Source: Holophagaceae bacterium (GTDB lineage: Bacteria; Acidobacteriota; Holophagae; Holophagales; Holophagaceae). Taken from it: a stretch of 33,877 nucleotides of DNA. The translations under genes and the position numbers were made by a program. Within the stretch, counting starts at the first letter, position 1. Every line of letters starts with the position of its first letter. The notes under the pieces were generated by a model. That model ran no database searches, had not been told where the DNA came from, and saw only the letters and a list, made by a program, of their open reading frames with translations. Shown in pieces: positions 6,232 through 8,638 of this stretch. Location of the stretch: positions 1 through 33,877 of the forward strand of contig PLUC01000233.1 in the NCBI GenBank assembly GCA_003165415.1, given 5' to 3'.

Positions 6232-7167
6232 ATGCCCAGACCCAATCGAGTCGACCACGCTTACGAACTCATCGGCTTCACCCCCGTGGTGCGGCTCAAC
6301 CGGATCGTTCCGGAAGGGGCTGCCACCGTCTACGTGAAGCTGGAAAGCGCCAATCCCGGCGGCAGCGTCAAGGACCGCATCGCCCTCAGCATCATCGAGG
6401 ACGCGGAGGCCACCGGCAAGCTCAAGCCCGGCCAGGTGATCCTGGAGGCCACCAGCGGCAACACCGGCATCGGCCTGGCCTTCGTGGCCGCGGCCAAGGG
6501 CTACGCCATGGCCCTGGTCATGCCCGACACCATGACCCTGGAGCGCCGGTCCCTGCTCAAGGCCTACGGCGCCGAGCTGATCCTGACCCCAGGCTCGAGC
6601 GGGATGAAGGGGGCGGTGGAGAAGGCCGAGGAACTGGCCCGAGCCGATTCTAAATACTTTCTGGCCCGGCAGTTCGACAACCCGGCCAACCCCGAGATCC
6701 ATCGCCGCACCACCGCCCTGGAGGTGCTGGAGCAGGTGCCGGAGCTGGACGCCTTCGTGGCCGGCATCGGCACCGGCGGCACCATCACCGGCGTGGGCGA
6801 GGTCCTGGCGCAGAAGAAGCCCGGCACCCTGGTGGTGGCCGTGGAGCCGGAAACCTCGCCCCTGCTCACCAAGGGCGTCGCCGGCCCCAACAAGATCCAG
6901 GGCATCGGCGCCAACTTCATCCCGTCCGTGCTCAACCGCGAAGCCTACACCCGGGTGGAGGACGTCTCCTACGAGGACGCCGTGGCCGTGGCCCGGCTCC
7001 TGACCCGCAAGGAGGGCCTGTTCTCCGGCATCTCCACCGGCGCCATCGTCCACGCCGCCATCAAGGTGGCGGTGGAGCTGGGCAAGGGCAAGACCGTGGT
7101 GGCGGTGCTGTGCGACACCGGCGAGCGCTACCTGAGCCACCCCCTCTACGCCGAGATCGACGCGTAG
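6232..7167 (+). CDS. cysK: Cysteine synthase A (O-acetylserine sulfhydrylase)
   Basis: The 311-residue product is a fold-type II PLP enzyme that makes L-cysteine from O-acetylserine and sulfide in the cytosol. Visible motifs are GGSVKDR with the PLP lysine at Lys47, the TSGNTGIGLA substrate loop, and the GTGGTITG phosphate-binding glycine loop. The C-terminal region (KEGLFSGISTGA) is also typical. The length fits CysK. I chose the ATG at 6232 because GAGG lies seven bases upstream and homology begins at once; an in-frame ATG upstream at 6184 falls inside the promoter. It stands alone, not in a sulfate-assimilation cluster. Its stop codon abuts the left arm of the 7168-7594 inverted-repeat element. 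A cystathionine beta-synthase-like activity cannot be excluded from sequence alone. Confidence 0.93.
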   Translation: MPRPNRVDHAYELIGFTPVVRLNRIVPEGAATVYVKLESANPGGSVKDRIALSIIEDAEATGKLKPGQVILEATSGNTGIGLAFVAAAKGYAMALVMPDTMTLERRSLLKAYGAELILTPGSSGMKGAVEKAEELARADSKYFLARQFDNPANPEIHRRTTALEVLEQVPELDAFVAGIGTGGTITGVGEVLAQKKPGTLVVAVEPETSPLLTKGVAGPNKIQGIGANFIPSVLNREAYTRVEDVSYEDAVAVARLLTRKEGLFSGISTGAIVHAAIKVAVELGKGKTVVAVLCDTGERYLSHPLYAEIDA

Positions 7168-7320
7168 CACACCTGCGGCGTCCGTTGTCCCGCCCATCGC
7201 GCCTTCTCGTTTCGCTCGGGTCCCATAGCGGTGCGCCGACCCATCGGTGCGTGAATCTCTTGAAGTGTCCTCGCTTCGCTGCGGGCGCTGCAAGAGTTCA
7301 CGCAGACCTTCCCCGCCTGG
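7168..7320 (+). repeat. Structured intergenic element, left copy (sense to cysK)
   Basis: The element starts right after the cysK stop. Bases 7181-7254 match the reverse complement of 7508-7581 at 73 of 74 positions; the one mismatch is A7196. An imperfect hairpin follows: GCGTGAA (7249-7255), bulged T7256, CTCTTG (7257-7262), pairing with CAAGAG (7291-7296) and TTCACGC (7297-7303). A last conserved block, CCTTCCCCGCCTGG, spans 7307-7320. The 113 bases between the arms (7321-7433) are not repeated and hold no gene I can support. Short open frames in the arms are by-products of the repeat. Confidence 0.85.
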
Positions 7321-7433
7321 TTTATTGGATACGTCACCAGTCATTGGAAGACGATTCGCGGCAACCATTCCGGGACGCGGGGCCTATAGGATCAGGCCAG
7401 CGCCAACTCTGCCATTGAACCGCAACCTGGAAT

Positions 7434-7594
7434 CCAGGCGGGGAAGGCCAGCGTGAGACCTTGGATCGCCCGCAGGCGGCACAGCCGCCGAGGACGGTCC
7501 AAGGATCTCACGCACCGATGGGTCGGCGCACCGCTATGGGACCCGAGCGAAACGAGAAGGCGCGACGGGCGGGACAACGGATGCCCCAGTGGGC
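7434..7594 (-). repeat. Structured intergenic element, right copy (sense to the alcohol dehydrogenase gene)
   Basis: The second copy reads on the minus strand, beginning next to the stop codon of the alcohol dehydrogenase gene. Beyond the 74-base core (7508-7581) it has its own hairpin: GCGTGAGA (7451-7458) and CCTTGGA (7459-7465) pair with TCCAAGG (7498-7504) and TCTCACGC (7506-7513), leaving A7505 bulged. That bulge sits where the left copy has its own. An extra apical hairpin, GGCGGC-ACA-GCCGCC, lies at 7476-7490. CCAGGCGGGGAAGG at 7434-7447 mirrors the inner end of the left copy. Neither copy has a T-run, so neither is a standard intrinsic terminator. Confidence 0.85.
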
Positions 7595-8638
7595 CTATAG
7601 CGTCTTGATGTCCAGGACGAAACGGTAGCGGACGTCCCCCTTGACCATGCGCACGTAGGCTTCGTTGACGCCGCTGACGGGGATCAGCTCGATGTCGGAG
7701 ACCACGTTGTGCTCCGCGCAGAAATCGAGCATCTCCTGGGTCTCCTTGATGCCGCCGATGAGCGAACCGCTCAGGGTCTTGCGGCCGAAGATGAGGGAGC
7801 CGGCGGCGATGGGGGTGGGCGCCGGCGGCACCCCCAGCAGCACCATGGCGCCCTCCAGGCGGACCATGCCCAGGTACTTGTTGTAGTCGTGGGGGGCGGA
7901 GATGGTGTCGATGATGAGGTCGAAGCGGCCGGCCAGGCGCTTGAAGGTGGCCTCATCGGAGGTCAGGCCGAAGCCGGCGGCCCCCAGGCGCCGGGCATCC
8001 GCCTCCTTGCCAGCGGAGGTGCTGAGCATGGTCACTTCCGCGCCCATGGCCGCCGCCAGCTTCACGGCCATGTGGCCCAGGCCGCCCAGGCCCACGACCC
8101 CCACCTGGTCGCCCGGCTTGGTATGCCAGTGGCGCAGGGGCGAGTAGGTGGTGATCCCGGCGCACAGCAGCGGCGCGGTGGCGGCCAGGTCCAGCTTGGG
8201 GGACAGGTGCAGTGCGAAGGCCTCGTCCACCACGACGCGGGAGGAATAGCCGCCGTAGGTGCGGGTGACCCTGTCCATCTCGGTGCCGTTGTAGGTGAAG
8301 GCCGCGCCCTTCTGGCAGAATTGCTCCAGGTCCCGGGCGCAGCTGGGGCAGGTGCGGCAGGAATCCACCATGCAGCCCACCCCGGCCAGATCGCCGGGCT
8401 TGAAGCCCTTGACGTGGGCACCCACCTGGGCCACCCGCCCCACGATCTCGTGGCCGGGGACCATGGGGAACAGCGAGCCGCCCCACTCGTCCCGCACCTG
8501 GTGGACATCGGAGTGGCAGACGCCGCAGTAGGCGATCTCGATCAGCACATCGTGGGGACCCACCGCCCGGCGCTGGATTTCGAAGGGCCCCAGGGGCAGG
8601 GCGGCGGCTGGGGCGGCATAGGCTTTGGTGGGGTGCAT
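7595..8638 (-). CDS. Zinc-dependent NAD(P) alcohol dehydrogenase (YahK/cinnamyl-alcohol type)
   Basis: A 347-residue medium-chain dehydrogenase that probably reduces aldehydes reversibly. Catalytic-zinc ligands are Cys41 (CGVCHSD), the His63-Glu64 pair in PGHE, and a Cys in LLCAGITTYSP. The structural-zinc lobe has Cys94, 97, 100 and 108. The Rossmann motif is GLGGLGHMAVKLA. Length and motifs fit the YahK/CAD branch, whose members mostly use NADPH and reduce many aldehydes; the true substrate cannot be read from the sequence. The ATG at 8638 is supported by AGGAG about seven bases upstream. It is a single gene, convergent with cysK across the paired repeat element. The next gene is divergent, 160 bp away. 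Confidence 0.92.
   Translation of the reverse strand: MHPTKAYAAPAAALPLGPFEIQRRAVGPHDVLIEIAYCGVCHSDVHQVRDEWGGSLFPMVPGHEIVGRVAQVGAHVKGFKPGDLAGVGCMVDSCRTCPSCARDLEQFCQKGAAFTYNGTEMDRVTRTYGGYSSRVVVDEAFALHLSPKLDLAATAPLLCAGITTYSPLRHWHTKPGDQVGVVGLGGLGHMAVKLAAAMGAEVTMLSTSAGKEADARRLGAAGFGLTSDEATFKRLAGRFDLIIDTISAPHDYNKYLGMVRLEGAMVLLGVPPAPTPIAAGSLIFGRKTLSGSLIGGIKETQEMLDFCAEHNVVSDIELIPVSGVNEAYVRMVKGDVRYRFVLDIKTL

Follow-up and report, generated by a model that had tools for sequence, protein, structure and literature searches.

Positions 7168–7594 of the window, the whole 33,877-nt stretch of Holophagaceae DNA analyzed here, appear to hold one copy of a lineage-specific, non-autonomous REPIN- or MITE-like repeat that inserts at stop–stop junctions and acts there as a two-way 3′-end structure, a reading to which we assign a probability of roughly 0.6. 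At the level of sequence comparison, the element is seen to disperse as one unit and to have been gained (or repeatedly lost) at a stop–stop junction. It looks like a mobile palindrome separating colliding genes, and probably functions as a two-way 3′-end hairpin that may act in termination, RNA stability or read-through.

Table 1. Features of the palindromic element and its flanking genes, in window coordinates.
Feature	Positions	Strand	Remark
cysK-like PLP enzyme gene	6232–7167	+	PF00291; stop TAG 7165–7167 abuts element
Dispersed palindromic element	7168–7594	.	occupies the whole 427-nt gap between the two stop codons
Outer stem, left leg	7180–7224	+	pairs with 7538–7582; alignment columns converted to window positions
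Highly variable ~7-nt block, left leg	7225–7231	+	
Core GCGCCGACCCA, left copy	7233–7243	+	
Left side hairpin	7249–7303	+	helix 3 of consensus structure
Central arm and centre	7305–7449	+	conserved in 13/13 complete copies
Right side hairpin	7451–7513	+	helix 10; two-sided changes in some copy at 8/18 stem pairs
Core GCGCCGACCCA, right copy, inverted	7519–7529	-	
Highly variable ~7-nt block, right leg	7531–7537	+	
Outer stem, right leg	7538–7582	+	
Zinc alcohol dehydrogenase gene, convergent	7595–8638	-	PF08240, PF00107; stop TAG abuts element

The palindromic unit and its copies

The outer inverted arms (7173–7273 and 7489–7589) are 101 nt long and match at 91 of 101 positions (90%), and a second pair of arms (7279–7323 and 7431–7475) spans 45 nt at 82%. 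The longest exact run is 58 nt and the best 74-base stretch matches at 73 positions, the exact count in the window thus agreeing with the original prediction, which had described the gap as two inverted copies of a roughly 150-nt element around a unique centre. The gap is indeed one structure with inverted arms, but the unit that is dispersed is the whole of ~430 nt, including the centre taken to be unique. Searching the genome itself with a 436-base query returns 13 complete copies and pieces, for a total of 16 copies, of which 13 are complete and 3 are interrupted, either by gaps in the assembly or by an inferred intron. Pairwise identity among the complete copies is 79–92% with a median of 87% (78 pairs), the smallest is ~400 nt long, and the oriented alignment of copies shows the centre conserved in every complete one. 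With no more than one mismatch allowed, a 16-nt arm motif matches 28 sites in the genome assembly, all of them inside the 16 whole-unit copies, which indicates that the arms are legs of one unit; three additional sites with two mismatches lie outside copies, and the assembly is 94% complete. These sites do not sustain the idea of a separate ~150-nt element for each gene, and a ~150-nt element used twice is rejected, since no lone arm was seen and the partial matches are broken copies.

The broken copies comprise two interrupted by N runs, on contigs C84 and C186, and two halves on C120 and C266 that may represent one split copy. A group II intron domain (RF02001) lies at L033 3164–3339, after the break on C120, and one copy (L033 3001–3339 together with the start of a match on C266, L030) is apparently interrupted by this intron, which would also account for the contig break between C120 and C266. 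The element is non-coding, the alignment containing indels and, by eye, no long reading frame common to the copies. It thus has terminal inverted repeats and no coding capacity, as MITEs do, as well as the inverted, hairpin-forming palindromic units and extragenic dispersal of REPs and REPINs. A plasmid search with the element gave no match, and a pattern scan of contigs from other genomes gave 12 single matches in unrelated organisms.

The predicted RNA fold has an energy of −321.6 kcal/mol on one strand and −327.9 kcal/mol on the other, ∼22 standard deviations below dinucleotide shuffles in both cases (z = −21.98 and −22.63). The folding stability is far beyond chance, and its near equality on the two strands agrees with the proposal that both convergent transcripts would end in the same RNA. 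In the consensus, a long outer stem is joined by two side hairpins and a central arm. Across the 13 complete copies 96.5% of 1866 cells are paired, and both sides have changed at 22 pairs (46 cells), compared with 10.0 and 14.9 in shuffles and with 1–5 pairs and 1–6 cells in slid controls, over which the consensus structure is favoured by having been derived from the same alignment. These paired changes show that the stem has been maintained. Mispaired cells in mostly Watson–Crick pairs are GT in 34 cases and AC in 24, numbers similar enough that no single RNA strand is marked as the functional one; they fit a fold on both strands, or correction of the palindrome at the DNA level. A block of ~7 nt in each leg varies freely among copies and is mostly unpaired, amid an otherwise conserved stem. 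Against the 4227 models of Rfam 15, window positions 7000–7800 give no match up to E = 1, and the copies in the window (L001) and at a second locus (L006) give none at the gathering score.

Placement between convergent genes

All 16 copies, complete and broken, lie between convergent genes, and none lies between tandem or divergent ones. The element is accordingly dispersed and tied to gene 3′ ends, as predicted, and random scatter relative to genes, named in advance as evidence against that view, is not what is observed. The stop codon precedes the arm motif by 0–19 nt at 29 of 31 readable ends, and by exactly 12 nt at 13 of them, which bears out the claim that the edges stand close to stop codons; the count of 31 excludes five rows in which the motif matched by chance outside the element. 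One exception is an end at locus L010, where the called frame extends 31 nt beyond the motif start, and the other is the right end of the C186 copy, where the stop is 74 nt away and belongs to a weakly called gene of 69 aa. At the C84 copy, the gene on the right is on the far side of the N run. In the window, the dehydrogenase stop TAG occupies 7595–7597 (CTA on the + strand), and residues 1–308 of the cysK-like protein align with the proteins of relatives.

The chance of 16 convergent placements out of 16 is 1e-12 given the share of convergent junctions (57/321), 7e-8 given the share of stop codons (114/319), and 8e-7 given the share of YTAR stops at element-free ends (25/60). These baseline shares come from a 418-kb sample of the genome consisting mostly of copy-holding contigs, with genes called by a codon-score caller made for this analysis. 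In the same sample, which includes the window, loci L070–L089 and the element-bearing junctions, TAG is the stop in 60 of 114 genes with a convergent neighbour; among the 205 tandem genes, 129 stop with TGA and 40 with TAG.

Element-free convergent gaps in the sample (n = 43) have a median length of 1 nt, and 31 of the 43 are no longer than 31 nt. Because such genes mostly overlap or lie ∼1 nt apart, any insert that spares both must abut both stops. The short gaps account for the tight fit of the element but leave its avoidance of tandem and divergent junctions unexplained. This geometry would also be expected of a purely selfish MITE that offers the host no benefit and lands wherever its YTAR- or CTAG-like target occurs, persisting only here because anywhere else its giant hairpin would disrupt a gene, operon or promoter. 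Signs of a target site are consistent with such an insert: the flanks share a run containing CTAG or CTAA/TTAG at 5 of 13 complete copies, and the mean shared flank length is 4.46, compared with 3.90 in swapped flank pairs (permutation p = 0.034), a weak sign of target duplication, for which runs of at least 5 give p = 0.08. The original prediction had held that a pair found only as terminal inverted repeats of one mobile element with target-site duplications would speak against it; the arms do occur only in whole units, and of duplication there is this weak sign. Other observations speak against a purely selfish insert. Among 356 YTAR sites away from element-bearing stops, 25 are element-free convergent stops and 35 are tandem stops, with 235 outside called genes (a class that includes missed genes and element interiors), yet tandem and divergent junctions have received none of the 16 copies. 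Paired changes in the stem are, moreover, unexpected in a dead insert, barring palindrome correction in the DNA. We hold a purely selfish origin of the placement to be rather unlikely.

The reading that we prefer, a repeat with two-way 3′-end action, can be outlined as follows. A trans-acting enzyme, not seen, would insert the element at stop–stop junctions without harm to either gene, perhaps at YTAR-like targets, for which the signal is weak. Each of the two colliding transcripts would thereby acquire the same long hairpin, which might limit antisense read-through or protect 3′ ends. If so, copies would be kept preferentially only where genes converge, a placement rule against which counts a minority of tandem or divergent places among the palindromes of relative G002 described below.

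Junctions and palindromes in relatives

At locus L006, all five relatives searched retain the left gene together with its convergent neighbourhood. The stop–stop gap there is 431 nt with the element in the present genome, and without it only 1 nt in G001, 3 nt in G004 and 8 nt in G005, the C-termini being conserved. Since three relatives are nearly gapless, the element was gained at this junction, or else lost several times. In G003 an additional gene is called between the pair, and in G002 an unrelated 523-nt palindrome of another family stands between the same two stops. The reverse case also occurs: a pair that overlaps by 4 nt here (a shared CTAG) holds a 448-nt palindrome in G002, and a pair that overlaps by 38 nt holds one of 510 nt, the latter being the weaker reciprocal case because the C-termini on one side differ. 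A preference of REP-like repeats for convergent gaps is known, and the question is whether such placement benefits the cell or is simply tolerated. Convergent gaps are otherwise almost absent in this genome, and one gene pair can be examined with and without the insert in different species; with an unrelated palindrome at the same spot in another species, the question of usefulness becomes testable.

The element itself has one weak match of 65 nt in 59 relatives (among at most 11 scored candidates per genome), in G002, and this match is a member of another palindrome family. Among up to 40 scored candidates per genome, that family has 72 matches in G002, 7 in G003, 19 in G005 and 5 weak ones here, and none in G001 or G004. 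In G002 stretches chosen mostly around matches, the 31 places comprise 22 between convergent genes, 8 between tandem genes and 1 between divergent genes. Three other families occupy 27 places in unselected G002 stretches, 19 of them convergent (P from 5e-7 to 1e-10); this count leaves out one family-C match located at the end of a stretch and includes matches down to 70 nt in length. The three family-B places between tandem genes start 0, 5 and 18 nt past the upstream stop. A broader reading is that stop–stop junctions in this group are a habitat of their own, in which unrelated giant palindromes turn over at the same address with the same both-strand fold, because a two-way 3′-end insulator is useful where genes overlap and leave no room for a terminator. 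Little beyond a short core would be common to the families, this being GCGCCGACCCA in some of them and, judged by eye, no more than GCGCCGAC in another. We put this forward only tentatively. Because matches to the three families occur in as many as 19 of the 70 convergent gaps of the unselected G002 stretches, double occupancy of the same gene end, as at L006 and the cysK end, is no proof of hot spots. Nor is the habit universal, given how few convergent gaps with a long stem occur in 200-kb samples of G001 (0/20), G004 (1/23), G008 (0/31) and G013 (0/30).

Short core words follow a related distribution. The 10-mer GCGCCGACCC occurs here at 2.76 per kb in convergent gaps and 0.02 in genes, and not at all in tandem or divergent gaps; the corresponding densities in G002 are 1.29 in convergent, 0.29 in tandem and 0.11 in divergent gaps and 0.02 in genes, and there is no convergent-gap match in the G001, G004, G008 and G013 samples. 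When 61 genomes of this family are scanned, the 13-mer GCGCCGACCCAYC matches 115 times in G002, 31 times here, 8–19 times in each of seven others and rarely or never in the rest, compared with 0–5 per genome for its reversed control. In other genera it lies in hairpins with quite different legs, and their convergent placement is not constant. Several further structures were encountered. In the present genome, a second type of long-stem structure, containing the core GGGTCGGCGC, fills a 607-nt convergent gap (L081 14068–14676). In G002 a 270-nt convergent gap (L150 266–537) is filled by an inverted repeat that starts GAGCCTGTCCAAGTAATATTCGG and by eye is unlike the other families. In G069 (L208 4114–4775) a tRNA-Pro gene precedes three tRNA-like repeats spaced ∼125 nt apart, and each repeat has at its end the GGTGGGTCGGCGC core that the palindromes also contain.

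A conserved pair is found at only one of the six loci compared in this way. The cysK and dehydrogenase genes of the window are apart in 5/5 relatives, as are the flanks of L007 in relatives, and for L004 and L005 only one flank is found, with other neighbours. The 3′ neighbour of cysK differs among all five relatives (L143, L140, L141, L142 and L144; 2 tandem, 3 convergent); it is convergent in G002, with a palindrome-family match in the gap, and in G005, with an N run in the gap. Some copies thus occupy junctions with changed partners. In the best-hit relative, none of 5 distinct element-bearing gene ends is convergent (L087 and L032 being the same gene, counted once), compared with 10 of 16 element-free ends (p = 0.035), a contrast that hinges on the relative picked, since convergence is seen for cysK in G002 and G005, and in the relatives for L006 and for each of the two L011 genes.

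Such changes of partner could instead mean that the element is a recombination site, its copies marking inversion endpoints and its placement mirroring genome shuffling and not a 3′-end function. Inversion between palindromes at two convergent junctions would preserve the convergent layout, and the separation of cysK from the dehydrogenase is in keeping with this. The genes flanking L011 are convergent with other partners wherever the neighbour is readable (5/5 and 4/4, or 9/9 together); in G001, G002 and G004 they are separated by 109–117 kb, and a single inversion can account for their order. The reciprocal junction of that inversion is absent among the element-flanking genes, the partner at L006 is unchanged in relatives so that rearrangement is unneeded there, and inversion leaves the first placement unexplained. 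We regard recombination as quite improbable as the cause of the placement.

Comparison with known systems

Three matches to the Y1 transposase domain PF01797 were found, on C270, C2 and C107 (2 of the 3 places were read), and these contigs have no element match, which leads us to reject a strictly RAYT-driven REPIN. No autonomous IS with the ends of the element was found by the arm-motif scan (at most one mismatch) of the 94% complete assembly. A candidate 3-kb autonomous parent in G002 (L180 14384–18102) is rejected because it contains an ordinary reading frame of 854 aa, which by eye we take to be an FtsX-like permease. An intrinsic terminator is rejected as well: on both strands of 7100–7700 there are no instances of a stem with a T-run, and no T-run follows a G+C-rich stem. 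A literature search with partial coverage found no publication on such repeats in this bacterial group.

A bidirectional intrinsic terminator would likewise present one hairpin common to two convergent genes, but the element is many times longer and has no T-run after any stem. With bacterial MITEs such as RUP, NEMIS/Correia and ERIC, it shares the lack of coding sequence, terminal inverted repeats, strong folds, a position adjoining coding sequences and possibly a short target duplication. MITEs are given as 70–300 bp with terminal repeats of 15–30 bp in PMC3733652, whereas the element is ~430 nt with legs of ~150 nt; in addition, no parent IS with the same ends is seen and the duplication is weak.

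Descriptions of REPs and REPINs give units of 20–40 bp for REPs (PMC3733652), mostly located in tandem and convergent gaps and able to supply stop codons (PMC3733652, PMC1525189), and inverted doublets with compensatory changes for REPINs (PMC3116915). The element resembles REPs, BIMEs and REPINs in being a dispersed extragenic palindrome with inverted pairs about a spacer and compensatory changes, in preferring 3′ gaps (tandem as well as convergent in the case of REPs), and in having ends able to supply a stop codon (PMC3116915, PMC1525189, PMC3733652). By eye, CTAC (GTAG reversed) and CGTC lie near many ends of the element, their terminal position not being constant. It differs from REPs and REPINs in that its unit is not tens of nucleotides but ~430 nt, with ~150-nt legs, side hairpins, a conserved centre and stop-to-stop filling of the gap, and in that the contigs with Y1 transposase (RAYT) matches show no element match. 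The element resembles a giant REPIN or MITE in action, although the size and transposase features of these were not found, and if it does insulate its neighbours, it would represent a selfish repeat turned into punctuation for overlapping genes.
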